From contig NZ_VTTP01000002.1 in assembly GCF_008364845.1 (NCBI RefSeq), forward strand, positions 558,001 to 622,000: 64,000 nucleotides of DNA. The letters are read 5' to 3'. The notes beneath the pieces were generated by a model, which saw only the letters and a list, made by a program, of their open reading frames with translations, searched no databases and was not told the origin of the DNA. Shown here one piece after another: positions 466 through 48,516 of the stretch (position 1 is the stretch's first letter; every line of letters begins with the position of its first letter). Origin of the DNA: Actinotalea subterranea (GTDB lineage Bacteria > Actinomycetota > Actinomycetes > Actinomycetales > Cellulomonadaceae). The position numbers were made by a program, and so were the translations under genes.

Positions 466-541
466 TGACGCATCGTGCCACGGTCGCGTCCCGGCGGCCC
501 CCGATGGGACGCCGGCGCGGTCCGCGCTAGCGTGTCGCCGC

Positions 542-33800: not shown

Positions 33801-34545
33801 CTTCACGCCCGACGAGGCCGCGCACCACGTGGCGCTCGTCCGCGAACACCTCATGGGCGTCGACGGCGTGCGCCTGTTCGACCGCCCACCGGGCTACCAC
33901 GGCGGCGAGATGCGCCACTTCCAGCGCGCGGAGACCGCGACGTTCGTGGGCCGCGAGATCGGGCTCATGTACGTCCACGCCCACCTGCGGTGGTGCGAGG
34001 CGATGGCCCGCTGGGGAGACGCCGAGGCCCTGTGGGCGGGGCTCCGCCAGGTGCTGCCCACGACGTCGGCCGGGGTGCCCGGTGCGCGCCCGCGCCAGTC
34101 GAGCACGTACAGCTCGAGCTCGGACGCGGCGTGCCTGGACCGCGCCGACTTCGCCGCCCGGTACGCCGACGTGCTCTGCGGCGCGACAGGCCTCGAGGGC
34201 GGGTGGCGCATCTACTCCTCCGGGCCGGGGGTGCTGCTCCGCGTCCTGACGCAGTCCCTGCTCGGCGTGCGACGCCGCGCCGGGCACGTGGAGATCGACC
34301 CCGTGCTGCCCGCCGCGCTCGACGGGCTGCGTGCGGCGGTGCCGCTCGGCGACGGCCTCCTGCGCCTGCACGTCAGCGTCGGTCCGCAGGGCGCGGGCCC
34401 CGACGCCGTGGTCCTCGCCGGTCGGGAGCTCCCGACGACCCGCACACCCAACCCCTACCGACGCGGCGGGCTGCTGGTCCGCCTGGCCGACCTTGCGGGC
34501 GCGCTGCGCCCGGGTGGCCCCGAGCTGGAGGTCCGCCTGCCATGA
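30859..34545 (+). CDS. GH94 family phosphorylase, probable 1,2-beta-oligoglucan phosphorylase
   Basis: A 1,228-aa cytosolic enzyme (no signal peptide). The N-terminal half holds beta-sandwich domains, with a Pro/Ala linker near 290-320. The C-terminal half has the (alpha/alpha)6 GH94 catalytic core: QYTGGAWGTRDVTQGP, the acid motif GDWNDSL (829-834), and the phosphate-binding region near RQSSTYSSSSDAA. GH94 enzymes cleave beta-glucosidic bonds with phosphate to give glucose 1-phosphate. Cellobiose or chitobiose phosphorylases are near 800 residues; the sophoro-oligosaccharide phosphorylases are about 1,100, so length and operon context favour the latter. Two in-frame tandem repeats explain part of the extra length. 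GTG 30859 overlaps the permease stop. Confidence 0.82.
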   Translation: MTAAPWEIVSDGGLRALVADGGGPASLGTADLELVQHAASAFEAGLLQIWVRDRGARTTTALLGAGSAAHVATADDVLTLTGRVAGHGGTEGLGWQATLALDPATTAWAWHVEVENLGQGVREVDLVHTHDVALAAPGALRSNELYVSQYLDVTPVHGEPFGTALAVRQNLPQGGRSPWCVLAASRAVVGWGTDALDLHGRTARVPAGGPLGIPWDLPSRRLQHEHTLVALQVAPAVLEPGDRLRVSFVGLLLAHHPGATGPDDLAHVEAALASGRRSAPWSGGPVGEDGPRAAGPATDAVAPAHARPARPAPAVPAGTTPAPTGLYEPGRELAALPLDEDRLHAEWPGPWRVVERGGDGAVHSFFTAGAEHVVTQAKELAVLRPHGTILRTGATAEPDPASLTVTAWMTGSPLSYLTRGHATTGRVLTTVRGYLNLHRAYGLRLFVEVGGRWRLLDTPSVFATTPEGARWLYAFADADADADAERPVGVVEVTTVAPPEEHRVALTARVLDGPPRRILAALHLALPGEPLPPAAGASGIDVTVRGGDGDAAGRRIVVSGVGPDRDAALHVDTAGPVTVGDDAVLFDDGRARVPGVVTLVTPRVPAVGSPTPTALDLRVSVARTEAPEHPRASAPEQQPDAADAPASVGTWWTDVTPVRVEHPSADVEALDAALPWLVRDALVHFLAPRGLEQYTGGAWGTRDVTQGPLELLLALDRLDDARALVLRVFAAQNPDGSWPQAFGFLPGDEHFRHEPPHGDVVHWPVLALGRYLQASGDHGVLDEVVPWYAAPGRDAPAQAPVQAHVDRALALARAGYLPGTHLVAYGHGDWNDSLQPADPAMARTMASAWTATLHHDALRALADGLDPERGDELEPGAAARVATLGGDAATLRADTTALRAGATALRAGATALRAEADAVAADLRRHLLVDGELAGYALLQPPAGSADGRAHVGGLLVHPRDTESGLSHGALQMIHALGGDLFTPDEAAHHVALVREHLMGVDGVRLFDRPPGYHGGEMRHFQRAETATFVGREIGLMYVHAHLRWCEAMARWGDAEALWAGLRQVLPTTSAGVPGARPRQSSTYSSSSDAACLDRADFAARYADVLCGATGLEGGWRIYSSGPGVLLRVLTQSLLGVRRRAGHVEIDPVLPAALDGLRAAVPLGDGLLRLHVSVGPQGAGPDAVVLAGRELPTTRTPNPYRRGGLLVRLADLAGALRPGGPELEVRLP
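32284..32313 (+). repeat. gccgat hexamer repeat encoding (Ala-Asp)n in the GH94 gene
   Basis: Four exact gccgat units (32284-32307) followed by gccgag encode ADADADADAE in a surface-loop-like position. The repeat keeps frame when copies are gained or lost. Confidence 0.9.
33543..33600 (+). repeat. 21-bp tandem repeat encoding heptads in the GH94 gene
   Basis: Two exact 21-bp units (33543-33563 and 33564-33584; start gaccgcgctccgcgcc) and a partial third encode TALRAGA heptads; diverged copies precede them (ATLRADT). The result is an Ala/Leu/Arg helical stretch of about four heptads inserted in the catalytic half. Confidence 0.88.
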
Positions 34546-36812
34546 CCCGACCCTGGACCGACGCCGCCCGGCCGGTGGAGGACCGCGTGCGCGACCTCCT
34601 CGCGGCGATGACCCTCGAGGAGAAGGTCGGCCAGCTCGCGCAGGTGGCGAACCCCGAGCCGGAGCGGGACGCCGCCGCGCTCGCCGCGGGCGCATTCGGG
34701 ACGTGCATCGTGGCGAGCGGCGAGCACGCGGGCAACGTGCGCGACGCGGGGACGCAGGCCGCCGCGGTCAACGCCCTCCAGCGCGCCGCCGTCGAGGGCT
34801 CGCGGCTGGGCATCCCGCTCCTCGTCGCGCGCGACGTCATCCACGGGCACCGCACCGTGTTCCCGATCCCGCTCGGCCAGGCCGCCTCGTTCGACCCCGA
34901 GCTCGTGCGGGAGTGCGCCCGCGCCGCGGCGCGTGAGGCGAGCGCCGACGGCGTCCGGTGGACGTTCGCGCCGATGCTCGACGTGTCCATGGACCCGCGG
35001 TGGGGGCGCGTCGCCGAGAGCTGGGGCGAGGACCCGTGGCTCTCCGCGGTGCTCGGCGCCGCGGCCGTCGAGGGGTTCCAGGGCGGGCCCGGCGGATCGG
35101 CCCTCGCCGACGCGGAGTCCCTCGCCGCGTGCGCCAAGCACTACGTCGGCTACGGCCTCGCGCAGGGCGGGCGGGACTACGCGGAGGTCGACGTCGGTCC
35201 CGTGACGCTCCACAACCGCCACCTGCGTCCCTTCCGTGCGGCGGTCGACGCGGGGGTCGCGACGGTCATGAGCGCCTTCCACACTCTGGACGGCCTGCCG
35301 ATGACCGCGCACCGCCCGCTCGTGCGCGAGCACCTCAAGGGCGACCTGGGCTTCGCGGGGCCGGTCGTGAGCGACTGGGACGCCGTCGGCGAGCTCGTGC
35401 TCCACGGGGTCGCCGCGGACCGGCGGGACGCCGCGGCGCTCGCCCTGGGGGCCGGCGTCGACATCGACATGGTCACGGGTGCCTACGGGACGCACCTCGC
35501 AGAGCTCGTACGGGACGGACTCCTCGACCCGGCCCTCGTCGAGGACGCCGCCCGCCGCGTGCTCACGCTCAAGATGCGGCTCGGTCTCTTCGAGGCCCCG
35601 TACACGGACCCGGGACGCGCTGCCGCGGTCCAGCTCACGGCCGGTCACCGGGCGCTCGCGCGCCGGGCTGCGGCGTCGGCCGTCGTGGTGCTGCGCAACG
35701 AGGGGGCGCTGCCGCTCGACGCACCCGACCTCGGGCACGTCCACGTCACCGGACCGTTCGCGTCCGCGCGGGCCGAGCTGCTCGGCACCTGGACCCTGGA
35801 CGGTCGGGCGGAGGACGTCGTGACGATCGCCGACGCCGTGCGCGAGCGCCTGGGCGGCGGCCCTGGCGGCCCTGGTGGCGCCACGGGCACCACGGTGACG
35901 GTCGACGACGCCCGGTTCCTCGACGAGACCCTGATCCAGGCGAGGGCCGCCGACGTCGTGGTCGCGTGCGTGGGGGAGCACCCGATGCGCTCGGGCGAGG
36001 CCAACTCGGTCACGTCCCTCGAGCTCCCGCCGGGGCAGACGGAGCTCCTCGAGGCGCTGGCCCGCGTGAGCCGCCGGCTCGTGGTGGTCGTCCTGACCGG
36101 GCGCCCGCTGGCGCTCGAACGCCTCGCGCACCTGGGGGACGCCGTCGTGCTCGCGTTCCACCCGGGGACCGAGGGCGGCCACGGGATCGTGGACGTGCTC
36201 ACGGGCGACGTGCCGGCGAGCGGGCGGCTCCCGGTGAGCCTCCCCTGGACGACCGGCCAGGTCCCGCTGCACCACGACCACCTGCCCACGGGGCGTCCGC
36301 TGGACCCGGACGGACCGGCGGGCCGGTACCGCGACCACCGTGACACGCCGCAGCACCCGTTCGGCTTCGGCCTGGGCCACGGCGAGGTCACGTACGGCCC
36401 GCCGTCGCTCTCCGCCACGACTCTCGGCCCCGGCCAGGACGTCGAGGTCACGGCGACGGTCACGAATGCGGGCAGCCTGCCCGTCGTCGAGCGCGTCCAG
36501 CTGTACGTGCGCGTCCGGCTCGGCCGCGTGTCGCGTCCCGTGAGCGAGCTCGCCGGCGTACGGACGGTCGAGCTCGAGCCCGGTGCGTCTGCCGCGGTCA
36601 CGTTCACGCTCGGGTACGCCGACCTCGGGTACCGGGACGCGCGGGGCGTGCTCGAGTGCGTGCCCGGCCCGGTCGACGTCCGCATCGCCCCCCACGCCGG
36701 GGCGGGCGCCGCGGTACGCCTCGAGCTCCTCGACGGCGACGCACCCGGTCCGTCCACGGGCACACGCCCGGCCGTGAGCGCCGGCACCGGCGCACGAGGG
36801 GGTGACGCCTGA
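34542..36812 (+). CDS. GH3 beta-glucosidase (cytosolic)
   Basis: A 756-aa GH3 enzyme without a signal peptide. The TIM-barrel domain has LVARDVIHGHRTVFPIPLGQ, the KHY motif (CAKHYVGYG), and nucleophile Asp278 in VVSDWDAVGEL. The second domain carries the probable acid/base Glu in VGEHPMRSGEANS and a C-terminal fibronectin-type III domain (about 620-740). It removes terminal beta-glucose; in beta-1,2-glucan loci GH3 enzymes handle sophorose left by the phosphorylase. The start ATG overlaps the GH94 stop as ATGA. The C-terminal 20 residues are low-complexity. Confidence 0.92.
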   Translation: MTRPWTDAARPVEDRVRDLLAAMTLEEKVGQLAQVANPEPERDAAALAAGAFGTCIVASGEHAGNVRDAGTQAAAVNALQRAAVEGSRLGIPLLVARDVIHGHRTVFPIPLGQAASFDPELVRECARAAAREASADGVRWTFAPMLDVSMDPRWGRVAESWGEDPWLSAVLGAAAVEGFQGGPGGSALADAESLAACAKHYVGYGLAQGGRDYAEVDVGPVTLHNRHLRPFRAAVDAGVATVMSAFHTLDGLPMTAHRPLVREHLKGDLGFAGPVVSDWDAVGELVLHGVAADRRDAAALALGAGVDIDMVTGAYGTHLAELVRDGLLDPALVEDAARRVLTLKMRLGLFEAPYTDPGRAAAVQLTAGHRALARRAAASAVVVLRNEGALPLDAPDLGHVHVTGPFASARAELLGTWTLDGRAEDVVTIADAVRERLGGGPGGPGGATGTTVTVDDARFLDETLIQARAADVVVACVGEHPMRSGEANSVTSLELPPGQTELLEALARVSRRLVVVVLTGRPLALERLAHLGDAVVLAFHPGTEGGHGIVDVLTGDVPASGRLPVSLPWTTGQVPLHHDHLPTGRPLDPDGPAGRYRDHRDTPQHPFGFGLGHGEVTYGPPSLSATTLGPGQDVEVTATVTNAGSLPVVERVQLYVRVRLGRVSRPVSELAGVRTVELEPGASAAVTFTLGYADLGYRDARGVLECVPGPVDVRIAPHAGAGAAVRLELLDGDAPGPSTGTRPAVSAGTGARGGDA

Positions 36813-36859
36813 CCTCAGACCGGGTTCGACCGACGACGTTCGACGAAGGGACAGACGAG

Positions 36860-38449
36860 ATGGGACAGCACCGCAAGCAACGCACGGTGGCAGCACTGGC
36901 GGTGGCCGCCACCACGGCCGGCGCCCTGGCGCTCACCGGTCCGGCAGCGGCCGGCACGCCCACGGCGGGCGGCGGGGTCGCCGACGCGACCGCGACCGGG
37001 CGCGGAGGTGGGCACGGGCAGGACCGCGTCCTGCGCGGCTACGCGGCGGACACGTGGGCCTCGTTCGTGGCCATGACCGACCCGGTCACGGGCCTGCCGG
37101 CGGACAACATCGAGGGTGACCTGGACCCGGCCACGCGCAGCGGCTACACGTCGCCGACCAACATCGGCGCCTATCTGTGGAGCACCGTCGTCGCGCGCGA
37201 CCTCGGCCTCATCACGCGGCACGAGGCCCGCGAGCGGCTCACGACGACGCTCACGAGCGTCGCCGCGCTCGAGCGTCACGAGGACTCGGGCATGTTCTAC
37301 AACTGGTACGACGAGGCGACCGGGGAGAAGCTCCGCGCGTGGCCGGGGACCGGTGACGTTGTCTACCCGTTCCTGTCGAGCGTCGACAACGCGTGGCTCG
37401 CGACCGCCCTCGTCCTCGTCAGCAACGCGGAGCCCCGGCTCCGGGCCCGGGCCGAGGCGGTCCGCTCGACCATGGACTTCGGCTTCTACTACGACCCGAC
37501 GGTGCGCCAGCTGCGCGGCGGCTTCTGGGACGAGCCGCCGGCCGACCCGGCGGCGGTGCTCGACAACTACCGGGACCGTGGCCCGGACGTCTGGTACACC
37601 GGCCACCACTACGGGACGCTCAACACGGAGCCGCGCATGGCGAGCTACCTGGGCATCGCGTGGGGCCAGATCCCGCCCGAGCACTACTTCGCGATGTACC
37701 GGACGTTCCCGGACGCGTGCGACTGGAGCTGGCCCGAGCAGCGCCCCGTCGGTGAGTGGACCGAGCACCTCGGCGTGCAGGTGTTCGAGGGCGCCTACCG
37801 CTACCGCGACATGCAGATCGTGCCCACGTGGGGCGGCAGCATGTTCGAGGCGCTCATGGTCGACCTCTTCGTTCCCGAGGCGCAGTGGGGGCCGACGAGC
37901 TGGGGCGTCAACCACCCGCTGACGGTCCGCGCCCACATCGAGCACGGCATGGACGAGGCGGGCTACGGCTACTGGGGCTTCTCGCCCGCGAGCGACCCCG
38001 CGGGCGGCTACCGCGAGTACGGCGTCGACCCCATCGGGATGGAGCCGAACGGCTACACCTCGGACCAGGAGCGCACGACCGTCGACCCGGGGTGGGACGA
38101 CCCGGCGTGCGCGCGCCCGGCGAGCGAGCCCGCGGCCTACGGTGACGGCGTCGTGACGCCTCACGCGTCGTTCCTCGCGCTGCCGTACGCGAAGGACGCG
38201 GCGCTCGACAACCTCGCGCGGATGCGCACCGAGCTGGGCGCGTACGGGCCCGGTGGGTTCTACGACTCCGTGGCGGTGCGCAGCGGCACGGTCGCCGAGC
38301 GGTACCTCTCGCTCGACCAGGGGATGATCATGGCCGCGCTCGGCAACGAGCTGCGCCACGACGCCGTGCAGCGCTACGTCACGCGCGGCGCCGTCGAGCG
38401 TGAGATCCGGCCGCTCCTGGGGATCGAGACGTTCAGCGCCGGAGGCTGA
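36860..38449 (+). CDS. Secreted GH144-like (glycoamylase-fold) enzyme, probable endo-beta-1,2-glucanase
   Basis: A 529-aa secreted protein. A Sec signal peptide (basic MGQHRKQR, hydrophobic core, cleavage near GPAAA-G) is followed by an (alpha/alpha)6-barrel-like protein. Recognisable motifs are SGYTSPTNIGAYLWS, DSGMFYNWYDEATGE, PFLSSVDNAWLAT, WGGSMFEALMVD, and a late SLDQGMIMAALGN. These are characteristic of the glycoamylase Pfam group that includes GH144 endo-beta-1,2-glucanases and relatives. Context (sophoro-oligosaccharide phosphorylase and GH3) supports beta-1,2-glucan as substrate. The gene is 47 bases after GH3 with ribosome-binding site gaaggga, and ends at a strong terminator. Which exact GH family it belongs to cannot be settled by eye. 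Confidence 0.72.
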   Translation: MGQHRKQRTVAALAVAATTAGALALTGPAAAGTPTAGGGVADATATGRGGGHGQDRVLRGYAADTWASFVAMTDPVTGLPADNIEGDLDPATRSGYTSPTNIGAYLWSTVVARDLGLITRHEARERLTTTLTSVAALERHEDSGMFYNWYDEATGEKLRAWPGTGDVVYPFLSSVDNAWLATALVLVSNAEPRLRARAEAVRSTMDFGFYYDPTVRQLRGGFWDEPPADPAAVLDNYRDRGPDVWYTGHHYGTLNTEPRMASYLGIAWGQIPPEHYFAMYRTFPDACDWSWPEQRPVGEWTEHLGVQVFEGAYRYRDMQIVPTWGGSMFEALMVDLFVPEAQWGPTSWGVNHPLTVRAHIEHGMDEAGYGYWGFSPASDPAGGYREYGVDPIGMEPNGYTSDQERTTVDPGWDDPACARPASEPAAYGDGVVTPHASFLALPYAKDAALDNLARMRTELGAYGPGGFYDSVAVRSGTVAERYLSLDQGMIMAALGNELRHDAVQRYVTRGAVEREIRPLLGIETFSAGG

Positions 38450-38466
38450 CCGCTGACGGTACGACC

Positions 38467-38507
38467 GGACGGGCCGGGCACCGCGACGTGCGGCGCCCGG
38501 CCCGTCC
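38467..38507 (+). terminator. Strong hairpin terminator ending the beta-glucan operon
   Basis: A 13-bp stem (ggacgggccgggc with gcccggcccgtcc), one A-C mismatch, then four more pairs around the loop gacgt. It lies 18 bases after the endoglucanase stop and separates it from the GH31 gene. Confidence 0.85.
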
Positions 38508-38615
38508 CGCTTGCGCCCGCACCGGCCCCACGGGCGCCCGCCCGCGTGCGCACGTGGGCCCGGGCCACGCGGCTGCGTACGGTGGAAGCACGACGACGAA
38601 GGGAACCGGAACCGC

Positions 38616-41033
38616 ATGCCTGCCCTGACCCACCACCTCGCCCTCGACCGCGTCGGGCCGGTGAGGCGGACCGCGCACGGCCTCGAGGCCGAGCTGGGCG
38701 CCGAGCGTCTGCGCGTCGACGTGGTGCGCCCCGACGTCGTGCGCGTCGCCGTGAGCAGGGGCGGGCGGTTCGAGGACGTCCCCACCCATGCGGTGTGCGT
38801 CGACCCGCTCGCGCTCGACGTGCCGTTCGAGCTCGAGGAGGCGGACGGCGTCGTGCGCCTGCGCACCGCCCAGGTGGTCGTGTCGGTGCACCTCGAGCCC
38901 TTCCGGCTCGACGTCCACCGGGGCGACGGCTCCCGCGTCGCGGAGACCTTCCAGGACGGCGACGGCCGGTGGTGGCCGTACGCGACCCTCAACGACGCGT
39001 TCGTGGTCCGCCGCCGGTGCGGCCTCCAGGACGCCATCTACGGGCTGGGGGAGAAGACCGGGCGGCAGAACCGACGCGGTCGCGACTTCACGCTGTGGAA
39101 CACCGACGTCCTCGACCCCGACGCGTCGGGGGAGTTCGCGGCCCTGGCCGGCGAGGACGACCCTCGCGCGGACAACCGGAGCACCGAGTTCGACCCGTAC
39201 TACGTCTCGATCCCGTTCTTCTACCACCAGGACCACGCAAGCGGGGCGATGTCCGCGTCGTTCCTGGACAACGGGTACCGCTCGCACTACGACTTCACGC
39301 CCGACGACGAGTACGTGATCCGGGCGGACGGCGGGCAGTACGTGGAGTACCTGTTCGCGGGCCCGACGATGGCGGGCATCCTCGAGGCCTACACGTGGCT
39401 GACGGGCCGCACCGGTCTGCCCCCGCTGTGGGCGCTCGGCTACCACCAGAGCAGGTGGGCGCGCTACACGCAGGCCGACGTCGAGGCCCTCGGGGCGCGC
39501 CACCGCAGCGAGCGGATCCCGTGCGACGCCCTGTGGCTCGACATCGACTACATGGACGGGTACCGCGTGTTCACGTGGGACCCCGAGCGCTACCCGGACC
39601 CCGCCGGCATGCTCGCCCGGCTCGCCGACCAGGGGCTCCGTGTCATCACCATCATCGACCCGGGGATCAAGCGGGAGCCGGGGTACCGGGTGTACGACCA
39701 GGCGGTCGAGCGCGACGTGCTGTGCCGCACCGAGGGCGGGGACACCTACGTCGGGCAGGTGTGGCCGGGGATCACGGCGTTCCCCGACTTCGCGACGCCC
39801 GAGGCCCGCGAGTGGTGGGGCGAGCTCAACGCGGCGCACGTCGCCACGGGGCTGGCGGGCATCTGGAACGACATGAACGAGCCGGCGACGGGCGTCATCG
39901 ACGCCCGGGGGATGCGCTTCGGGCGCGGTGCGCTCTCGCACGAGCGCCTGCACAACCAGTACGGGCTGCTCATGGCGATGGCGACCACGCAGGGGCTCCT
40001 CGCCGCGCGGCCCGACCTGCGGCCCTTCGTGCTCACGCGGGCGGGGTTCGCGGGCATCCAGCGCTACGCGGCGAGCTGGATGGGCGACAACATGTCGCGC
40101 TGGGACCACCTGTGGATGAGCATCCCCATGGCGACGGGCTTCGGCGTCTCGGGCCAGTCGTTCGTGGGTGCCGACGTGGGCGGGTTCATGGGGCACTCGA
40201 ACGCCGAGCTGTTCCTGCGCTGGCTCCAGCTCGGCGTCCTGACGCCGTTCTGCCGCAACCACTCCTCGATGGGCAACGTGGACCAGTACGCCTGGGCGTT
40301 CGGGGCCACGGTCCGCGACCTCGCGCGCGCCGCGATCGAGCTGCGCTACCGGCTGATGCCCTACCTGTACGCGGCGTTCGTCCAGGCCTCGGAGACCGGG
40401 ATGCCCGTCCAGCGCCCCCTCGTGCTCGACCACCAGGACGACCCCCTGGTCCGGGACGTCGACGACGAGTACCTGCTGGGCCCCGACCTCCTGGTGGCGC
40501 CCGTGGTCGCCGCAGGGATGACGGCCCGCCAGGTCTACCTGCCCGCGGGGCGCTGGTACGACTGGTACACCGGCGAGACGCACGCGGGTGGGTCGTTCGT
40601 TCTCGTGCCGACGCCCATGGACCGGATCCCTCTCTTCGCACGCGGCGGCGCGGTCGTGCCGATGTGGCCCGTCGCGCCGCCGTCGACGGCGGGGTACCGG
40701 CCCTCGGTCGTCGACCTCCACCTCTTCGTGCCCGACGACGGGACGTCCCGCACCGCCCTGCTCCAGGAGGACGACGGCCTCACGTCCGCCGCGCTCGACG
40801 GGGCACGCGTGCGCACGACGTTCACCGTCGAGCGGTCGGGCGCCCTGGTGCGGCTGCGGGCCGACGTGGAGGGCGACGGCTTCCCCGAGTGGGCGCGGGA
40901 CGCGTACCGGCTCGTGGTGCAGGGCGCCGCGCCGCGCGTCGTGCACCTCGACGGCGACGCGGTCGAGCCGACGGACGGCGCCTTCGTGCTGCCCGTCGGG
41001 GCACGAGCCTTCACGGTCGAGCTCTGCGTGTGA
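38616..41033 (+). CDS. GH31 alpha-glycosidase
   Basis: An 805-aa cytosolic GH31 enzyme. N-terminal beta-sandwich, then the barrel with WLDIDYMDGY, nucleophile Asp419 in GIWNDMNEP, acid/base Asp491 in SWMGDNMSRW, and the C-terminal beta domains. The family hydrolyses alpha-glucosidic (or alpha-xylosidic) bonds; sequence details around GADVGGF and PFCRNHSSMG look like an alpha-glucosidase. It is separated from the preceding operon by a terminator and has its own ribosome-binding site (gaaggga), so it may be transcribed independently. Why an alpha-glucosidase sits beside a beta-glucan locus is unclear; the next gene starts 56 bases later. Confidence 0.9.
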   Translation: MPALTHHLALDRVGPVRRTAHGLEAELGAERLRVDVVRPDVVRVAVSRGGRFEDVPTHAVCVDPLALDVPFELEEADGVVRLRTAQVVVSVHLEPFRLDVHRGDGSRVAETFQDGDGRWWPYATLNDAFVVRRRCGLQDAIYGLGEKTGRQNRRGRDFTLWNTDVLDPDASGEFAALAGEDDPRADNRSTEFDPYYVSIPFFYHQDHASGAMSASFLDNGYRSHYDFTPDDEYVIRADGGQYVEYLFAGPTMAGILEAYTWLTGRTGLPPLWALGYHQSRWARYTQADVEALGARHRSERIPCDALWLDIDYMDGYRVFTWDPERYPDPAGMLARLADQGLRVITIIDPGIKREPGYRVYDQAVERDVLCRTEGGDTYVGQVWPGITAFPDFATPEAREWWGELNAAHVATGLAGIWNDMNEPATGVIDARGMRFGRGALSHERLHNQYGLLMAMATTQGLLAARPDLRPFVLTRAGFAGIQRYAASWMGDNMSRWDHLWMSIPMATGFGVSGQSFVGADVGGFMGHSNAELFLRWLQLGVLTPFCRNHSSMGNVDQYAWAFGATVRDLARAAIELRYRLMPYLYAAFVQASETGMPVQRPLVLDHQDDPLVRDVDDEYLLGPDLLVAPVVAAGMTARQVYLPAGRWYDWYTGETHAGGSFVLVPTPMDRIPLFARGGAVVPMWPVAPPSTAGYRPSVVDLHLFVPDDGTSRTALLQEDDGLTSAALDGARVRTTFTVERSGALVRLRADVEGDGFPEWARDAYRLVVQGAAPRVVHLDGDAVEPTDGAFVLPVGARAFTVELCV

Positions 41034-41089: not shown

Positions 41090-42067
41090 GTGCGCATCCT
41101 CCTGACCGGCTCGAACGGGTTCATCGGCGCGCGGATCGCCGCCGACGCCAAGGCGCGGGGCTGGGAGGTCGTCGGGCTCGGACGTTCCGCGGCGCCGGCG
41201 CGTCCCGCGGGGTCCGCGGGGCCCGACGCCTACGTGCGGCACGACCTCGGCGAGCGTCTCCCGGACGGCGCGGTGCCGGGGCCCGTCGACGCGGTGGTGC
41301 ACTGCGCGGCCCTGGCCTCGCCGTGGGCGCCACCGTCGGCGTTCGTGCGGGCCAACGTCGAGGGCACCAGGACGGTCCTGCGGTGGGCCGCGGACCACGG
41401 CGCGCCCCCCGTGGTCTACGTGTCCAGCTCGAGCGTCCTCTACCGGGACGAGCACCAGCTCGGTCTCACGGAGGACTCACCCGTCCCGCCCGACGACGAG
41501 CAGATCAACGTGTACTCCCGCACCAAGCGGATCGGTGAGCGCATGGTCGCCCGGTACCCGGGCCCGTGGTCGGTCGTCCGGCCCCGTGCCGTGTTCGGCG
41601 CGGGCGACACGGTGCTGCTGCCCCGCATCGTCCGCGCGGCGCGGCGTGGGGTCCTGCCCGTCCTCGAGAGCGCCGACGGGCCGCGCATCGTGTGCGACCT
41701 CACCGAGGTCGACACGGTCGCGCACTACGTGACGCAGGCGCTCGAGCGTCGGGTGCAGGGCGTGTACAACGTGACCAACGCGGACCCCGTCGAGCTCTAC
41801 CCGTTCCTGCTGACCCTCCTGAGCCGGCTCGGGGTGCGGCCCACGGTCCGGCGCGTGCCCCCGGCCGTCGCCCTCGCCCTCGCCGGTGCCGCGGAGCGGG
41901 TCTCGGCCGTCGCGCTCGGGTACGCCGAGCCGCCCGTGACGCGCTTCGGCGTGTCGGTCCTCGCACGGTCCAAGACGTTCGACGTCACGCGTGCCCTGCG
42001 TGACCTCGGCGAACCCGCGGTGAGCCTCGACGAGGGCGTGGAGCGCCTGGTTGCCACGCATGGCTGA
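41090..42067 (+). CDS. Extended short-chain dehydrogenase / 3-beta-HSD-like (OleD-like position)
   Basis: A 325-aa extended SDR. The Rossmann motif LLTGSNGFIGARIA (GxxGxxG) is at the N-terminus, with VVHCAALAS, SSSSVLY and catalytic YSRTK (Tyr-xxx-Lys). The C-terminal part resembles 3-beta-hydroxysteroid dehydrogenase and OleD, the NADPH reductase of beta-keto acids in olefin synthesis. Translation starts at GTG 41090 and its stop overlaps the next gene by 8 bases. It is the first of four coupled rightward genes and may set the hydroxyl group later glycosylated (inference). Other extended-SDR functions such as sugar epimerase are not excluded. Confidence 0.75.
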   Translation: MRILLTGSNGFIGARIAADAKARGWEVVGLGRSAAPARPAGSAGPDAYVRHDLGERLPDGAVPGPVDAVVHCAALASPWAPPSAFVRANVEGTRTVLRWAADHGAPPVVYVSSSSVLYRDEHQLGLTEDSPVPPDDEQINVYSRTKRIGERMVARYPGPWSVVRPRAVFGAGDTVLLPRIVRAARRGVLPVLESADGPRIVCDLTEVDTVAHYVTQALERRVQGVYNVTNADPVELYPFLLTLLSRLGVRPTVRRVPPAVALALAGAAERVSAVALGYAEPPVTRFGVSVLARSKTFDVTRALRDLGEPAVSLDEGVERLVATHG

Positions 42068-43283
42068 GGCGGCGCTCGTGCTCGCCGGCGTGCTGGCCGT
42101 GCTGACCGCCGCGCGCGTGGGCCTCGCCGCCGCCGCGCTCCGGCGCGGGCCCGTCGTGCGCAGGCCCGGTGGGGCGCCGGGCGCGGCTGGCACCGGGCGC
42201 GCTGCGGCCGCCGCTGCCGGCCAGGGGCCGTCAGATGGTGCGGCCCCGGTGACCGTCCTGGTCGCGGTCCGCTCGGGGGACCCGCTCATGCCCGCGATGC
42301 TGCGCGAGAACGTCGCGAGCATCGGGCGGACGCCACACGCACGCCTCGTGCTCCTGGTCGACGAGGACGACGCCCCCGGGCGGGACGCGGCAGCGCAGGC
42401 GCTGGCGGTCGCGCCGGACCTCGTGACCGTGGTGCCGTGCGCCCCGCCCGAGCCGGGCCGCAACCCGAAGGTCGTCAAGCTCGTGGTGGGGCTCGAGCGG
42501 GCCGACGCGCTCGTCGCGGTCCTCGACGACGACACCGTGCTGCCCGACGGTGCCCTGGGGGTCGCTCGGGACGCGCTCGCCGCGGGCCACCTCGTCACCG
42601 GGCTGCCCGTGTACCGGGAGCAGGGCTCGCTCTGGTCGCGCCTCGTCGCGGCCTTCGTCAACGGCAGCGCCCTCGTGACGTACCTGCCGCTCGCGCGCGT
42701 GGCACCGCCCGTCACCGTCAACGGGATGTTCGTCCTCACGCGTCGGGACGTCCTCGAGGGCCTGGGCGGCTTCGCGGCGATCAGCGGTGAGGTCTGCGAC
42801 GACTACGCGCTCGCGCGCCTCTACCGCGATGCCGGCCTGACCCTGGTGCAGACGACCGTGACGCACCCGCTGGCGACGACCGTGCCCGGTCCGCGCGCGT
42901 ACGCCCGCATCCTGCGCCGCTGGATGGTGTTCAGCCAGGAGGTGCTGCGTCGCGACCTCACGCCCGCCATGGTCGCGCTCGTCGTCCTGCCTGCCGTCCT
43001 TCCCCTGCTCGCCCTCGCGCTCGCCGTCGCCTCGGGCCGACCGGCCGTCGTCGCGGCCGTCGTCGCCGTGCTCGTCTCGAAGGTGCTTGCCGTCGCGGCG
43101 CTGCGACGGCGCGTCCCGGGCGCACCACGGGGCGCGCTCGGCGTCGTCCTCGAGCTCGTGGCCGACCTCCTGACGCCGGTGCACGCCGTGGGCGCGCTCG
43201 TCGGGCCGCGCCGGGTCGCCTGGCGGGACCGGCAGATCCGCACCGGACCGGCGGGTCCCGTCATGGCCGGGGACGCGCCGTGA
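42060..43283 (+). CDS. Membrane glycosyltransferase family 2/21 (ceramide-glucosyltransferase-like)
   Basis: A 407-aa GT-A glycosyltransferase. One N-terminal membrane helix (1-25), a 40-residue Ala/Gly-rich linker, then the catalytic domain with LLVDEDDA, VLDDDTVLPDG (D1/D2), EVCDDYALARLYRDAG (D3) and ILRRWMVFSQ, which is the (Q/R)xxRW motif of ceramide glucosyltransferases and HpnI. Several C-terminal helices (about 300-380) anchor it. Such enzymes add glucose or another sugar to a lipid hydroxyl on the cytosolic membrane face. ATG 42060 overlaps the dehydrogenase stop by 8 bases; its own stop overlaps the next gene by GTGA. Confidence 0.8.
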   Translation: MAEAALVLAGVLAVLTAARVGLAAAALRRGPVVRRPGGAPGAAGTGRAAAAAAGQGPSDGAAPVTVLVAVRSGDPLMPAMLRENVASIGRTPHARLVLLVDEDDAPGRDAAAQALAVAPDLVTVVPCAPPEPGRNPKVVKLVVGLERADALVAVLDDDTVLPDGALGVARDALAAGHLVTGLPVYREQGSLWSRLVAAFVNGSALVTYLPLARVAPPVTVNGMFVLTRRDVLEGLGGFAAISGEVCDDYALARLYRDAGLTLVQTTVTHPLATTVPGPRAYARILRRWMVFSQEVLRRDLTPAMVALVVLPAVLPLLALALAVASGRPAVVAAVVAVLVSKVLAVAALRRRVPGAPRGALGVVLELVADLLTPVHAVGALVGPRRVAWRDRQIRTGPAGPVMAGDAP

Positions 43284-43975
43284 CCCGCTGGTTCGCCGGC
43301 TACGACGTCGCCGACCACCTCACCGCGTCGTCCGTGCCCTCCACCCTGGCGGGCGGGGCCGGCACCGCCGGCGAAGAGGTGCCGTCCGGCCGGTGCGGCG
43401 CGCGTGCGGCGTGGCTCACGGGGCAGAGCTCCTGGCGCCACAGCCGGCTCTCGCCCGCGCAGGAGGACGTGCTCGCGGACCTCGCCGGGCTCGGGTACGT
43501 CCCCGTCCCCGGTGGCTTCCCGTACAACCGTGCGGCGATGCGCCTGCCGTACCGGCCCGAGCCGGTGCTCGCGGCCTCGGTGCGCAACACCGCCCAGTAC
43601 GTCGCGGCGCGGACGAGCGCGCGCTTCGCCGACGACGTGGTGCGGCACCTCCAGCCGCTGGTCGACGCGACCGAGCACCACCTGCTCCTCCTGTGCGGCA
43701 GCACGGGTGCCCAGCTCCTGGCCACCGCGGCCCCGCGGCTGCGCGTGCGCGCCGGCCTGACGGTCACCGCCGTCGCGCTCGGTCCGGTGGGCGCACGCCC
43801 CGAGGCGGCTCCCGGGCTCCAGGTGCGCGTGCTCCAGGGTGACCGCGACCTCGTGAGCCGCTGGGGCTACCGGGGGACGCCTGACCTCGTCGTCCCCGGG
43901 CGCCACCTCGGCTACGCGACCTCGGCCCAGGTGCGCGCCGAGGTCCTGCGTGTCGCACGGGAGGTGCTCGCGTGA
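43280..43975 (+). CDS. Alpha/beta-hydrolase-like protein with an altered nucleophile elbow
   Basis: A 231-aa protein not matching any family I know well. Its second half resembles the alpha/beta-hydrolase core: HHLLLLCGSTGAQLL places Ser141 after a strand, but the elbow is C-G-S-T-G rather than G-x-S-x-G; an acid in QGDRDLVSRW (Asp190) and a His in VVPGRHLGY (His209) follow at normal spacing. The first 80 residues are unusual and contain PGGFPYNRAAMRLPYRPEP. GTG 43280 and its stop both overlap neighbours by GTGA, so it is an integral part of this operon. Hydrolase, thioesterase or acyltransferase activity are all possible. Confidence 0.6.
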   Translation: MTRWFAGYDVADHLTASSVPSTLAGGAGTAGEEVPSGRCGARAAWLTGQSSWRHSRLSPAQEDVLADLAGLGYVPVPGGFPYNRAAMRLPYRPEPVLAASVRNTAQYVAARTSARFADDVVRHLQPLVDATEHHLLLLCGSTGAQLLATAAPRLRVRAGLTVTAVALGPVGARPEAAPGLQVRVLQGDRDLVSRWGYRGTPDLVVPGRHLGYATSAQVRAEVLRVAREVLA

Positions 43976-45225
43976 GCGGCCCCCGCCTGCTGCTCGTCGC
44001 GCCGCCGTTCAGCGGGCACCTGAACCCGTTGATCGGCCTCGCGACGGGTCTGCGCGCCCGGGGCATGGAACCCCGCTTCGCGACCGGTGCGGCCAAGGTG
44101 GACCTCCTGCGCGGGCTCGGCTTCGCCGTGGAGCCGCTCCTCGCGGACGACCCCGGTGCGCTCGAGCGGATCTCCGACACCCCCGGCCCGGTCCGCAGCA
44201 ACCCCGTCCTCCTCCTGCGGCAGCTGTCGGCGAACCTCGCGCTCCTGCCGACCGTGCGCCGCGAGCTCGACGTGCTCGTGGACCGCGACCGTCCCGACGC
44301 GGTCCTGGCGGACTTCACGGCGCCCGTCGCGGGCCTCGTCGCGCTCGACCGCGGCATCCCGTGGCTCACGACCATGCCGACGCCGTTCGCGCTCGAGACC
44401 CGGACGGGCACGCCCTCGTACTGCGGCGGCTGGGGGCCGGCGCGGCACGCCGGGCACCGGGTGCGTGACGCGGCGGGCCGGGCGGCGACCCGGGCGACCA
44501 AACGGACGATGCAGCGCGTCCTCGCGTCGCGCTTCGCCGCCGCCGGGACGGGCGTGTACCGGGCCGACGGCTCGGAGGCCGCCTACTCGCCGCAGTCGAT
44601 CCTCGGCCTCGGCATGCGCGAGCTCGAGCTCCCGCGCGACTGGCCCGACCAGCTCGAGCTCGTCGGCCCCGTGACGGCGACGCCGGAGCCGTGGCCCGAG
44701 CCACCCGTCCTGCCGCCGGGGCCGCTCGTGCTCGTGACCATGGGCACCCACCTGCCGTGGGTCAAGCGCGACCTGGTCGAGCGCGTCCGGGTGCTTGCGG
44801 ACTCCTTCCGTGGACACCGGTTCGTCGTGAGCCTCGGCGACGCGTCACGTGCGGCGCCGCACCCGGTCGCGCAGGACGGGGACGTGCACGTCTACAGCCA
44901 CCTGCCGTACGACGACGTGCTGCCGCGGTGCGCCGCCGTCGTGCACCACGGCGGGGCCGGGATCACCTACAGCGCCGTCCGCGCGGGCGTCCCGGCGCTC
45001 GTGTGCCCGCAGGACTACGACCAGTTCGACTTCGCGGCGCGTGTCGTGGCGGCCGGAGCGGGCGCCTCGGTGCGGCGGCTCGACTCGCCCGCCGCGGTGC
45101 GGGCGATGCGTGCCCTGCTCGACGCCGACCGCGGGCCGCTCGAGCGGCTCTCGCGCGCGGCCGCGACCTACGACCCGGTCGGCGCCACCGAGCGCGCGGT
45201 CCTGAGGCTCATCGCGCGTCGGTGA
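43972..45225 (+). CDS. MGT-type glycosyltransferase (GT1)
   Basis: A 417-aa GT-B glycosyltransferase. The N-terminal domain begins LLLVAPPFSGHLNPLIGLA, typical of the acceptor-binding half of macrolide and lipid GT1 enzymes (His in SGHLNP is the catalytic base). The C-terminal donor domain has VTMGTHLPW and the motif VHHGGAGITYSAVRAGVPAL with PQDYDQFDFAARV, which binds a nucleotide sugar. It is soluble and likely works at the membrane on a hydrophobic aglycone. It is the last of four overlapping rightward genes and overlaps the convergent ligase gene by 17 bases. Confidence 0.87.
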   Translation: MSGPRLLLVAPPFSGHLNPLIGLATGLRARGMEPRFATGAAKVDLLRGLGFAVEPLLADDPGALERISDTPGPVRSNPVLLLRQLSANLALLPTVRRELDVLVDRDRPDAVLADFTAPVAGLVALDRGIPWLTTMPTPFALETRTGTPSYCGGWGPARHAGHRVRDAAGRAATRATKRTMQRVLASRFAAAGTGVYRADGSEAAYSPQSILGLGMRELELPRDWPDQLELVGPVTATPEPWPEPPVLPPGPLVLVTMGTHLPWVKRDLVERVRVLADSFRGHRFVVSLGDASRAAPHPVAQDGDVHVYSHLPYDDVLPRCAAVVHHGGAGITYSAVRAGVPALVCPQDYDQFDFAARVVAAGAGASVRRLDSPAAVRAMRALLDADRGPLERLSRAAATYDPVGATERAVLRLIARR

Positions 45226-46543
45226 GGCCCACCGCCGGGCCGCCGGGCACGGACGGGTCCCGACGCACCCGGCGCAGCTTCTCGGTCGGGCCGAGCGGCG
45301 TGAAGTCGGCCCGCTCGACCGCGGGCTCGACGAGCCCCGCGCGTCGGACGGTGGCCCGCAGCGCGCTCGCGGCGCCGTCGTGCGCGGCCGGTGGCGTCAC
45401 CGCGACGGTCACCGTTGCCGCACCCGTCTGCACGACGCGGAAGTCACGGACGCCCGGTGCGCCAAGGACGGCGCCCCGCACGAAGTCCGCGAACAGCGGT
45501 CCCCGGGTGCCCGGACGTTCCGCGGATGCGAGCCACAGGACGTCGTCCGCCCGGCCTGCGACCTCGTCCACGACGAGCGTGGGTGAGCCGCAGCCGCAGG
45601 CGTCGTCGGCCGCGAGCAGCACGTCGTCGAGCCGCAGCCGCAGCACGGCCTGGCTCGTCCGCACCAGGTCGGTGATGACGGGTGTGAACCGCCGGCCCGT
45701 CCGGTCGAGCGGGATCCGCTCGACCTTCACGAGGTCCTCGTTCAGGTGCAGCGCCCCGAGCCGGCAGCTGATCCCCAGGAACCCCTCGGTGGCCTGGTAG
45801 ATCTGGTCCACCCGGCACCCGAGGCCGGCCTCGATCTCCCGCTCGTCGTGCGGGTCGAGGACCTCCGCGACGGACAGCACCCGCCCGGGGCTGATCGTCG
45901 AGCGGCCCTGCACCTTGGCCTGCGCGACGAGCCGGAGGATCGAGGGCGGGGCGGCGAGCACCGTCGGTCGGAAGTCCTCGAGCGCGGTCAGCTGCGCCTC
46001 GACCGGCAGTGCGAGGTCCACGAACCGGAAGCTGACCCGCCGCGTCCCGACGGACTCGTACAGGGGCCCGCCGGCGCGGAGCACGAGGGCGACGCGCGTG
46101 CCGGTGACGAGGCCGTCAGGGAGGGCCTTCGCGAGCACCTCGCCCGCCCAGCGGGCGCGCTCGCGCGGCGTCGTCAGGAAGACGCTCTGGCGGCCCGAGG
46201 TCCCGGACGACAGGCCGATCGACACCCCGCCGAGCGATGCGGTGAAGTCGCGTTCCCGTTCCGCGGTGCGGGCGGCGGCGAGGCACGCGTCGAGCGTCAG
46301 CCCGTGTTCGTTGAGGTCGGCGAACCGCTCCACGACGGTCGCCTTGTCGATCACGGGCAGGTCGGTCAGGCGGGTCGGGGCGAGCCCGCGGTAGTACGGG
46401 TAGCGGCGGGGCGCGGTGGCGAGCACCCGACGCAGCCGTGCGTCCTGCCACGCCTGGAGAGCCGCACGGTCGGCGAACCGCCGTCGCCGCGCACGCGCGT
46501 ACGCCACGCCCACCTGGAGCTGCGTGAGGCCGGGCGGGCTCAT
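45209..46543 (-). CDS. Adenylate-forming enzyme, PaaK / coenzyme F390 synthetase-like
   Basis: A 444-aa ANL-superfamily enzyme. The P-loop is GLSSGTSGRQSV, the adenine region has YQATEGFLGI, and TDLVRTSQAVLRLRLDD gives the conserved Asp and Arg. A CGCG motif in DDACGCGSPT matches the Zn or Cys cluster of PaaK-like proteins. A small C-terminal domain has LGPTEKLRRVRRD with the catalytic lysine. The group activates carboxylic acids as acyl-AMP (phenylacetate-CoA ligase) or adenylylates F420 (F390 synthetase). Here it may activate a fatty or hydroxy acid. It starts 10 bases after the MBL gene and ends overlapping the convergent GT1 gene. Confidence 0.82.
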   Translation of the reverse strand: MSPPGLTQLQVGVAYARARRRRFADRAALQAWQDARLRRVLATAPRRYPYYRGLAPTRLTDLPVIDKATVVERFADLNEHGLTLDACLAAARTAERERDFTASLGGVSIGLSSGTSGRQSVFLTTPRERARWAGEVLAKALPDGLVTGTRVALVLRAGGPLYESVGTRRVSFRFVDLALPVEAQLTALEDFRPTVLAAPPSILRLVAQAKVQGRSTISPGRVLSVAEVLDPHDEREIEAGLGCRVDQIYQATEGFLGISCRLGALHLNEDLVKVERIPLDRTGRRFTPVITDLVRTSQAVLRLRLDDVLLAADDACGCGSPTLVVDEVAGRADDVLWLASAERPGTRGPLFADFVRGAVLGAPGVRDFRVVQTGAATVTVAVTPPAAHDGAASALRATVRRAGLVEPAVERADFTPLGPTEKLRRVRRDPSVPGGPAVGLTDAR

Positions 46544-46553
46544 CGGCGCGAGC

Positions 46554-47468
46554 TCACGGGCGGGCCGCCGCGAGGGCGAGACGGGCCCGGTCGATGGCCA
46601 CGGGGCAGTGCGACGGGACGACCAGCAGGCCGGGGGAGGTGCGGTGGAGCCTGTGCAGGGCGCCGAGCGTCGCACGGTAGGCGCCCCACGAGTGGGTCAC
46701 GAGCCTGACGACCGGGTGCGGCAGCTCGAGGTGCGTGATGGCGCGCAGGCTCCACGCCGCGTCGCCGACGAGCAGCACGTCGCCCGCCCGGCTCGCGACG
46801 AGGAGGCCCACCTGACCGTGCGCGTGGCCCGGCAGGCGCACGACGACGACGCTCCCGTCGCCGAGCAGGTCGTGGGCGGGTCCGAGGGTCGTGACGTCGG
46901 TCCGCGCGGACTGCGGCGCCTGCGGGTCACCGGCCCCGGCGGGGTCGCGCGGGGCGTCGGGCACCCAGCGGGGCAGCGTCGCGACGTCCACGACGCGGCG
47001 CTCGAGGTCGTCTGGCAGGAGCGCGGGCAGGAACCCACGCCGCAGCCGTCCGAGCGGGCCCCGCCGCACGTGCGAGGCGAGGGCGTCCGCGTCGAGGACG
47101 ACACGGGCGGCGGGCAGGTCACGCAGGCCGGCGACGTGGTCCGCGTGCAGGTGCGAGACGACGACGGTGGCGACGTCCGCCGGGTCGATCCCGAGGGCCG
47201 GGAGCTGCTCGGCGAGCGACCTGCCACGACCCAGACGCATCGGCAGGAGGCGGCCGTAGACGGCACCCGGTCCGCGGCGCGTCGCCGTCGCGTAGCGCGG
47301 CGCGTAGCCGGTGTCGAGCAGCACGACCCCGTGGTCGGGGTGCCGGATCACGGCGACGAGGCTCGGGAACTCGACAGGACGCCAGGGCGCTCCCCGGCGC
47401 GCGACGGCGCCGGGGTGCTCGCAGGAGCCGACCGTGAGGAGGTCGACCAGGACGGGGCGCACCGCCAC
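46554..47468 (-). CDS. Metallo-beta-lactamase-fold hydrolase
   Basis: A 304-aa MBL-fold enzyme of the AttM/quorum-lactonase-like branch. It has LLDTGYAPRY, the zinc motif SHLHADHVAG (His106, His108, Asp110, His111), LPGHAHGQVGLL and VGDAAWS, and a late PSHCP. Family members open lactones or cleave thioesters. A lactone or thioester intermediate is expected if the neighbouring KAS III and adenylating enzyme act in one pathway (inference). GTG 47468 starts one base after the KAS III stop, so the genes are in one leftward operon. Confidence 0.85.
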   Translation of the reverse strand: MAVRPVLVDLLTVGSCEHPGAVARRGAPWRPVEFPSLVAVIRHPDHGVVLLDTGYAPRYATATRRGPGAVYGRLLPMRLGRGRSLAEQLPALGIDPADVATVVVSHLHADHVAGLRDLPAARVVLDADALASHVRRGPLGRLRRGFLPALLPDDLERRVVDVATLPRWVPDAPRDPAGAGDPQAPQSARTDVTTLGPAHDLLGDGSVVVVRLPGHAHGQVGLLVASRAGDVLLVGDAAWSLRAITHLELPHPVVRLVTHSWGAYRATLGALHRLHRTSPGLLVVPSHCPVAIDRARLALAAARP

Positions 47469-47469
47469 G

Positions 47470-48516
47470 TCAGTACCGCAGGAGCACGGCGCCGATGGAC
47501 AGGCCCGCTCCGGTCCCGAGCAGCAGCGCGGTCTGACCGCGCCCGAGCCGGCCGGAGCTGATCGCGTGGTGCAGGGCCGTCGGCAAGGACGCCGAGACCT
47601 GGTTGCCGTGGTCCCCGATGATGTCCACCACGGCCTCGGGCGGCAGGCCCGTGCGCTGACGCAGGTAGCGCAGGCCGACGCCGCTCGCCTGGTGGGGGAC
47701 CACGACGTCCACCTCGTCGAGCGCGGGGCCGCTGTCCTCGCGCAGACCCTCGAGGAACGCAGGCAGATGGACCGCGACCTGGCGCAGGAGCGCGCGACCG
47801 TCCATCCGGAACAGGTAGGCGGTCGGGTCCGGGGGCGGTGTCACGGCGTTCCACCGGGTGCCGCCCGCGTCGATCCGGCAGTGGTCCGACCCCTCGGGCC
47901 ACGTCGCGAACCTGAGCGCGAGGACGGACGAGGCGTCCTCGGGCGCCGACCGTCCCACGACGATCGCGGCCGCGCCGTCGCCGAAGAGCGCGCTCGACTC
48001 GACCTCGGCGTGGTTGAGGCCCTTCGACGCGAGCTCGGTCGCCGCGACGGCGACGCGGTCCCAGCGGCCGGCCGCGATCCCGACGGTCGCCACCTGGAGC
48101 GCGGTGAGGAAGCCGATGCACGACGCGTTGATGTCGAACGCCTCCGTCCGTCCGCCCGCGAGGCCGAGCTCGCGCAGCGCGAGGACGCTCGTGGTCGGCA
48201 TCGGCTGCTCGGGGAGCACGCTCGAGACGATGAGGGCGTCGAGGTCGGACAGGTCGGTCCCGGCCGCCTCCGCCGCGGCGCGCAGCGCTCCCGCGGCCAT
48301 CCGGCTCGAGCTCTCGTCCGGCCCGGCCCACCGACGGCTCGCGACGCCTGAGCGCGCCTGGGTGGTGCCCGCGGGGCGCTCGTACCTCTCGTCGAGCTCC
48401 GTGGACGTCATGAGCACCGAGGGCTCGTGCACCCCCGAGCCGAGGATGCGCACGGGGTAGGCCGTCGCGCGTCTGCGTGCCTGGGCGCGCTCGGGTGCGG
48501 GGGCGGTCGTCGTCAT
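47470..48516 (-). CDS. 3-oxoacyl-ACP synthase III-like (KAS III / OleA-type thiolase fold)
   Basis: A 348-aa thiolase-fold condensing enzyme with the complete FabH triad: Cys133 in DINASCIGFL, His275 in VVPHQASG, Asn305 in GDHGNQVSASLP. The N-terminal RSGVASRRWA segment is the usual KAS III Arg cluster. It could start fatty acid synthesis, but its place beside an adenylating enzyme, an MBL hydrolase and glycosyltransferases suggests a dedicated secondary role, such as joining two acyl chains as OleA does. ATG 48516 gives about 20 disordered residues before the fold. It is the first gene of the leftward unit. Confidence 0.88.
   Translation of the reverse strand: MTTTAPAPERAQARRRATAYPVRILGSGVHEPSVLMTSTELDERYERPAGTTQARSGVASRRWAGPDESSSRMAAGALRAAAEAAGTDLSDLDALIVSSVLPEQPMPTTSVLALRELGLAGGRTEAFDINASCIGFLTALQVATVGIAAGRWDRVAVAATELASKGLNHAEVESSALFGDGAAAIVVGRSAPEDASSVLALRFATWPEGSDHCRIDAGGTRWNAVTPPPDPTAYLFRMDGRALLRQVAVHLPAFLEGLREDSGPALDEVDVVVPHQASGVGLRYLRQRTGLPPEAVVDIIGDHGNQVSASLPTALHHAISSGRLGRGQTALLLGTGAGLSIGAVLLRY

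Follow-up and report, generated by a model that had tools for sequence, protein, structure and literature searches.

Organization of the seven-gene block

We analyzed a 64,000-nucleotide window of Actinotalea subterranea contig NZ_VTTP01000002.1 (the whole stretch of DNA, whose positions serve as coordinates throughout), which carries a block of seven intact reading frames arranged as two convergent units and encoding a candidate lipid pathway. The plus strand carries SDR, an extended short-chain dehydrogenase resembling OleD and sterol-4-carboxylate dehydrogenase (41090-42067; assigned from NCBIfam, PDB and residues), GT2, a glycosyltransferase resembling ceramide glucosyltransferase and HpnI (42051-43283; Pfam, NCBIfam and PDB), ABH, a small alpha/beta hydrolase (43280-43975; alignment triad, AlphaFold model and Foldseek), and GT1, a UDP-sugar-type glycosyltransferase resembling MGT, CalG and sterol glucosyltransferases (43972-45225; NCBIfam, Pfam and PDB). 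On the minus strand lie KAS, a KAS III-type ketosynthase nearest to MxnB and CorB (47470-48516; PDB, Foldseek and residues), MBL, a lactonase-like hydrolase of the metallo-beta-lactamase fold (46554-47468; Pfam, PDB and residues), and LIG, a PaaK-like adenylate-forming enzyme of the TIGR02304 'F390 synthetase-related' family (45209-46543; NCBIfam and residues). We refer to SDR, KAS, MBL and LIG as the core, and to GT2, ABH and GT1 as the glycosyl module.

Consecutive genes overlap by 17, 4 and 4 bases in the plus unit and are separated by 10 and 1 bases in the minus unit, and the open reading frame ends of GT1 and LIG define a 17-base tail overlap between the two units (45209-45225). A preliminary description of this DNA, made from its letters, had given the same coordinates, overlaps and gaps, and all of them proved correct; its family labels were borne out by Pfam and NCBIfam scans for six genes, the exception being the third gene of the plus unit, ABH, which matched no Pfam or NCBIfam model. 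The G+C content of the block (76.4%) is only slightly above that of the window (74.5%) and thus gives no sign of recent foreign DNA. A pattern scan of the block for promoters and terminators found none, a result that is uninformative at 76% G+C. A role in defence was considered and set aside, as PADLOC returned no match for any of the seven proteins.

Within the glycosyl module, GT2 scored 97.3 bits on Pfam PF13506 Glyco_transf_21 (cut-off 21.7; E-value 8.9e-28), and its PDB matches at an E-value of 0.01 were solely ceramide glucosyltransferase, a GT21 enzyme, at about 1e-9; it also matched the HpnI model, far below the cut-off (71.8 bits versus 310). GT1 reached 61 bits on TIGR01426 (cut-off 260) and matched PF06722 at 9.8e-16, and its PDB matches included CalG1 (1.6e-17), a rhamnosyltransferase (1.3e-12) and sterol 3-beta-glucosyltransferase (2.6e-10). 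ABH is predicted to be an alpha/beta hydrolase by its modeled fold and its Ser-Asp-His triad: searched with Foldseek, the AlphaFold model (pLDDT 82.1) matched lipases, esterases and cutinase with a best E-value of 2.7e-4 and TM-scores of about 0.4-0.5, with only two matches at or below 0.001. The preliminary description had regarded this hydrolase as degenerate, a view that we abandoned, as Ser141, Asp190 and His209 are invariant in all 10 aligned rows.

A conserved core with exchangeable modules

With LIG as bait, a collection of species genomes was scanned with a six-sequence alignment, yielding at least 595 stretches, of which 574 were confirmed and the best 80 kept; counts over these 80 loci describe the closest relatives of LIG, not the whole ligase family. 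Profiles were built from the window and five plasmid loci, and genes were scored within 6.5 kb of the ligase, at more than 70 bits for core genes and more than 50 bits for module genes. Gene calling was mechanical (longest non-overlapping frames), and locus maps consequently miss some genes; the counts given here come from the profile table.

SDR, KAS, MBL and LIG form a conserved unit that extends far beyond the actinobacteria. Among the 80 loci, KAS was found in 72, SDR in 76, MBL in 76 and all four core genes in 69; when only the loci with at least 6.5 kb on both flanks are counted, 57 of 62 hold all four. The complete core occurs in Actinomycetota, Bacillota (including Paenibacillus polymyxa, L066), Pseudomonadota, Cyanobacteriota, Chlamydiota, Acidobacteriota, Verrucomicrobiota, Campylobacterota, Elusimicrobiota and Saccharimonadota, to which Bdellovibrionota is added if locus L110 is counted. 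Because several loci stem from metagenome-assembled genomes, any one phylum label can be trusted only as far as the binning behind it; L100, the Verrucomicrobiota locus, has its SDR cut by the contig end. Pairwise identities of the four core proteins covary (rho 0.66-0.86 over 67 rows, with shared ancestry not corrected for), and for each of the six protein pairs none of 500 permutations reached a value as high. Closer to the window the ligase is rare: TIGR02304 exceeded its cut-off in one of 246 sampled genomes of the window's phylum, its own, and at an E-value of 1e-40 the ligase was present in 7 of 200 genomes of its family, its own included.

This recurrence bears directly on the idea that two unrelated operons face each other by chance, for which the opposite strands could be cited, as well as the lack of any promoter or terminator pattern tying the units together. 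In ten phyla SDR, here in the plus unit, is part of one core with the three minus-strand genes, and seven or eight distinct actinobacterial loci repeat the convergent order; the co-occurrence of the core genes already contradicts a chance meeting, which we consider almost certainly wrong.

All seven genes are found together in 8 of the 80 loci (L052, L053, L054, L055, L057, L058, L067 and L100) and also in L046-L048, L046 being on the same contig as L052, while L057 and L058 have identical coordinates and may be near-copies. The order KAS-MBL-LIG meeting GT1-ABH-GT2-SDR is seen in L046/L052, L047, L048, L053, L054, L055, L057 and L058, and in Paenibacillus caui (L067) all seven genes run in one direction. 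As the preliminary description had supposed, the seven genes are thus a conserved block, and not a chance set.

The genes beside the core vary. ATP-grasp genes accompany it in 53 of the 80 loci and GNAT genes in 36; PAP2, fatty-acid hydroxylase and fatty-acid desaturase genes occur together in 5 loci, and also in Escherichia coli; GT2 and GT1 occur together in 10, with the small hydrolase in 9 of those. These names rest on Pfam for representatives and on record annotation, and the ATP-grasp label is weak in Pfam, where it falls under the cut-off in L043 and exceeds it in L059. SDR, MBL and LIG of a cyanobacterium that carries GT2-ABH-GT1 (L079) are 74-78% identical to those of L084, which carries ATP-grasp and GNAT genes; likewise, the four core proteins of Herbaspirillum L113, which has PAP2, hydroxylase and desaturase genes, are 55-70% identical to those of Massilia L115, which has an ATP-grasp gene. 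The two glycosyltransferases and the hydrolase are therefore one exchangeable module among several, and both this exchange and the breadth of the core had escaped the preliminary description. That similar cores come with different modules speaks most strongly for a division of labor in which a shared lipid part is made by the core and the head group by the module.

Six plasmid records carry the ligase. In five of them (Paraburkholderia, Paracoccus, Paenibacillus, Pontibacillus and E. coli) it is accompanied by a KAS III, an NAD-dependent reductase and an MBL, while in the sixth, the Pseudomonas amygdali megaplasmid pMPPla107, a TIGR02304-type ligase (L042:7899-9197) stands without KAS, SDR or MBL in the 17 kb taken. 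An ATP-grasp-like frame lies near the pMPPla107 ligase. The E. coli plasmid record, from KE48 (L045:5131-12012), holds the core with PAP2, fatty-acid hydroxylase and desaturase genes; it also holds narGHJI, purU and galU, which we take to be chromosomal genes, and it may be a mislabelled piece of chromosome. A nucleotide query with the E. coli core matched 672 of 5,426 complete E. coli genomes (12.4%), at 670 chromosomal places and 2 on plasmids, a figure that is not a population frequency since the complete-genome collection is not a population sample. Identities were 95-99% in 568 matches, at least 99% in 102 and 90-95% in 2, and in the one record inspected the cluster is flanked by narI and purU.

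A second gene order, SDR-MBL-LIG-KAS, was seen with lower core scores in L049/L075 (Jonesia), L050, L051, L107, L088, L122 and L128, the hosts being Jonesia, relatives of the window's family, Lachnospiraceae, Clostridium and a Saccharibacteria bin. A GT4-type glycosyltransferase adjoins this core in L049/L075, L050 and L051, and L107 has a frame that clusters with it.

Core enzymes and their relation to known systems

By alignment, the core enzymes are intact at the residues that we take to be catalytic. Ser112, Tyr142 and Lys146 of SDR are present in 82/82 core rows. In MBL, the HxHxDH residues His106, His108, Asp110 and His111 are kept in 84/84 rows, and His215, Asp236 and His287 in the 81/81 rows that reach them. 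Each position of the G-T-S-G loop of LIG is conserved in 87-89 of the 89 rows; Glu253, Asp307, Cys316 and Cys318 are so in 89/89, and Lys422 in the 86/86 rows reaching it. KAS Cys133 is found in 82/82 rows, and His275 and Asn305 in the 81/81 rows that extend to them.

MxnB and CorB are the nearest neighbors of KAS in both sequence and fold. Against PDB sequences, KAS matched MxnB at 5.5e-52 and CorB at 7.3e-50, followed by FabH (3.2e-41) and, much further down, the best OleA entry (5vxf, 6.3e-15); MxnB/CorB also take ranks 1-3 in a Foldseek search with the AlphaFold model (pLDDT 93), followed by FabH, and OleA-named entries appear from rank 41 among the 50 matches listed; the Xanthomonas entry at rank 38, named 'FabH', may itself be an OleA. 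All 82 core KAS sequences have Gln104, as do MxnB and CorB, and none of nine FabH or three OleA references has it. Most cores carry a nucleophile motif of the Cys-Leu-Ser-Phe type (STCLSF in 33 of 82, ATCLSF in 18), similar to the ASCLSF of MxnB/CorB.

In the part of PMC5724707 available to us, MxnB/CorB are described as forming the alpha-pyrone of myxopyronin and corallopyronin out of two polyketide chains bound to carrier proteins; both chains that MxnB joins are long, and its authors compared it with OleA (PMC5724707). The nearness of KAS to MxnB/CorB, together with this activity of MxnB, was counted in favor of a two-chain condensation. The systems differ in that MxnB/CorB act on beta-keto chains held by dedicated carrier proteins, whereas the partners of KAS are a reductase, an MBL and a ligase.

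The same neighbors could speak for a secreted signal or antibiotic, in which the core would make a diffusible pyrone or lactone, MBL would act as a lactonase that tunes it, and tailoring genes would adjust its solubility. MBL (Pfam PF00753, 1.1e-15) matched 12 PDB sequences, 10 of which are lactonases, and a sequence named 'Beta-lactamase' ranks first (4.6e-11); moreover, single regulators adjoin the core in L040 and L041, and ABC-transporter-like frames lie near it in a few loci. However, the annotated recurrent neighbors are mostly lipid or group-transfer enzymes (ceramide-glucosyltransferase-like glycosyltransferase, PAP2, fatty-acid hydroxylase and desaturase), although regulators and exporters were not sought systematically, and SDR and LIG would have no place in simple pyrone formation. 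We thus regard a secreted product as quite unlikely.

KAS shares the fold and the Cys-His-Asn triad of FabH, and a single-chain route can be built on this likeness: KAS would extend an acyl-CoA with malonyl-ACP, as FabH does, SDR would give a 3-hydroxy acid, MBL and LIG would release and re-activate it, and GT2, ABH and GT1 would build a rhamnolipid-like glycoside of hydroxy fatty acids. The FabH matches are strong (178 bits on TIGR00747; PDB 3e-41), the window KAS has a FabH-like Gly after Cys-Ile, and rhamnosyltransferases are among the GT1 matches. The make-up of the glycosyl module is also that of RhlA (an alpha/beta hydrolase), RhlB (GT1) and RhlC (GT2), an analogy of composition only; we know of no rhamnolipid genes that come with a KAS/SDR/MBL/ligase core. 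On the other side, the KAS copy of the block lies below the TIGR00747 cut-off (292) in 7/7 genomes searched, each of which has a separate FabH above it (in the window's genome at C21:385236-386186, 325 bits), the nucleophile motif is A-(A/V)-C-(S/A)-G-(F/Y) in 9/9 FabH references, and both Gln104 and the usual core motif are MxnB/CorB-like. A dedicated KAS and reductase would also be redundant, as fatty-acid synthesis already makes plain 3-hydroxyacyl chains. KAS as the housekeeping FabH was consequently rejected, in line with the separation expected from the preliminary description, and the single-chain route strikes us as unlikely, if still worth serious consideration.

The preliminary description had likened the condensing enzyme to OleA, and this did not hold. 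According to the portion of PMC7064751 at hand, OleA, OleD and OleC convert acyl-CoAs to beta-lactones by condensation, reduction and ring closure, and all OleA proteins treated there except two have Glu at position 117, followed by proline (PMC7064751). The corresponding column in the 82 cores holds Ile (50), Leu (22) or Met (10) and never Glu, which is present in 3/3 OleA references, while the following proline is kept in 82/82. In a quick tree, OleA (3 rows), FabH (9 rows) and the cores (82 rows) are separated, with two label changes. On PRK09258, which we take to be the OleA-type model, and for which an OleD-like gene within 4 kb in 3/3 loci sampled fits, the window KAS scored 103.7 bits, below the cut-off of 285; no gene of its own genome exceeded this cut-off. 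KAS as an OleA was therefore rejected. Another KAS III-fold protein is encoded at the left edge of the window (1-1434; L173:1839-3935), in a 698-residue frame that extends beyond the edge and whose C-terminal half matches a DpgA-type ketosynthase model at 162 bits, versus a cut-off of 425.

The analogy with OleABCD holds for the logic, not for membership. Both have a thiolase-fold condensation, an OleD-type reductase, an adenylating enzyme and a hydrolase, and OleD (NF042422) is the best of all NCBIfam models for SDR (153.7 bits, cut-off 580), ahead of HpnA (94.7), RmlD (53.2) and GalE (40.8); in seven cluster-holding genomes the best matches to NF042422 range from 129 to 226 bits. The best PDB match of SDR is a decarboxylating sterol-4-alpha-carboxylate 3-dehydrogenase (1.3e-12). 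As the preliminary description had anticipated, no grouping of SDR with sugar epimerases was seen: the branch of a tree that sets the cores off from 3 OleD and 20 further extended SDRs has almost no support (14), and an epimerase assignment is not supported. LIG scored 355.2 bits on TIGR02304, above the cut-off of 251.9, and is thus a member of this family, which was named by resemblance and whose conserved gene context is new here.

A variant of the Ole pathway, with a beta-lactone or olefin as end product, TIGR02304 in place of OleC and MBL in place of OleB, would suit the OleD-like SDR and the ligase and ketosynthase classes. Against such a variant, the OleA glutamate is absent from every core; LIG matches TIGR02304/PaaK, reaching only 21.7 bits on PF00501, under the cut-off, whereas OleC is an ordinary AMP-binding enzyme; no block gene matched a model named OleB, although the presence of such a model in NCBIfam was not checked; the hydrolases here are an MBL and a small alpha/beta hydrolase, the head-group genes vary, and two sugars or the other modules would have no role in an olefin. 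We therefore find the variant improbable, even though a glycosylated beta-lactone has been proposed for a cluster of OleA, a glycosyltransferase, OleC, a P450 and OleD in the part of PMC7064751 seen. Within that part, this proposal is the nearest published idea that we found to the pathway of the block. No description of the cluster itself was recognized in the literature, as judged by titles and abstract openings, with most subscription papers outside the coverage. The block thus represents an Ole-like logic in a new combination, in which every enzyme class is known and TIGR02304 is already a named family.

A proposed two-module lipid pathway

We favor a lipid pathway in two modules, a core and a head-group module, which in A. 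subterranea would make a glycolipid; we put the probability of this reading at about 50%. The substrates, the order of steps, the number of chains, the sugars and the product are those that we infer. KAS would carry out a Claisen condensation of activated fatty chains, most likely joining two of them head-to-head as do MxnB/CorB and OleA, and MBL may free the beta-keto product from its thioester, or open a cyclic ester. SDR would reduce the keto group of the (branched) 3-oxo acid to a 3-hydroxy acid, whose carboxyl group LIG would re-activate as an adenylate and couple on. Acting like ceramide glucosyltransferase, GT2 could then glycosylate the lipid alcohol; GT1 could add a second sugar or glycosylate another position, and ABH may trim or transfer an acyl group. 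Such a pathway would yield a glycosylated hydroxy-lipid, equivalent in function to glucosylceramide or to a mycolate glycolipid. The new glycolipid pathway suggested by the preliminary description thus survives in outline, as a lipid pathway and probably a glycolipid one, and its OleA and degenerate-hydrolase details do not.

Several observations weigh against this proposal. Likeness to MxnB/CorB does not in itself prove a two-chain condensation, and the window KAS carries the motif ASCIGF, in which a Gly, as in FabH, takes the place of the Ser of MxnB/CorB and most cores. The quick KAS tree joins MxnB/CorB to FabH on long branches with a support of 84, a join that the program warns may be false. 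With no more than 10 bases between neighboring frames, the block has no space inside it for a carrier-protein gene (the flanks were not searched). Among the 62 full-flank loci, MBL was not found in two (L070 and L096), and L056 lacks SDR and L064 lacks KAS within 6.5 kb, while in L110 KAS is present but farther off. The ligase was found in none of the 18 other genomes of the same genus listed (E-value 1e-40), which indicates that the cassette is not essential membrane chemistry.

The surroundings of the block, labelled from reading translations, comprise glycoside-hydrolase-like genes on the left flank and a universal-stress-like protein and a P-type ATPase on the right. Three of the former are large, span 33990-41033 on the same strand as the SDR unit and end 56 bases before the block.

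More tentatively, and with somewhat less than even confidence, we suggest that the two-module pathway may represent an undescribed class of bacterial membrane lipids, in which a four-enzyme cassette would build a branched hydroxy acid from two fatty chains, as a bacterial equivalent of ceramide or mycolic acid. Lateral transfer would have carried the cassette into ten or more phyla, and into some 12% of complete E. coli genomes, with interchangeable head-group modules providing sugars, groups made by ATP-grasp and GNAT enzymes, or groups tailored by PAP2, hydroxylase and desaturase enzymes. The natural module swaps on similar cores make the proposal testable, and the E. coli branch is tractable for genetics. 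If it is correct, a small gene set would point to a lipid family that has no gene link in the literature found, across Paenibacillus, cyanobacteria, Actinomycetota and E. coli, and the TIGR02304 ligases, which NCBI has named only by resemblance, would gain a role.

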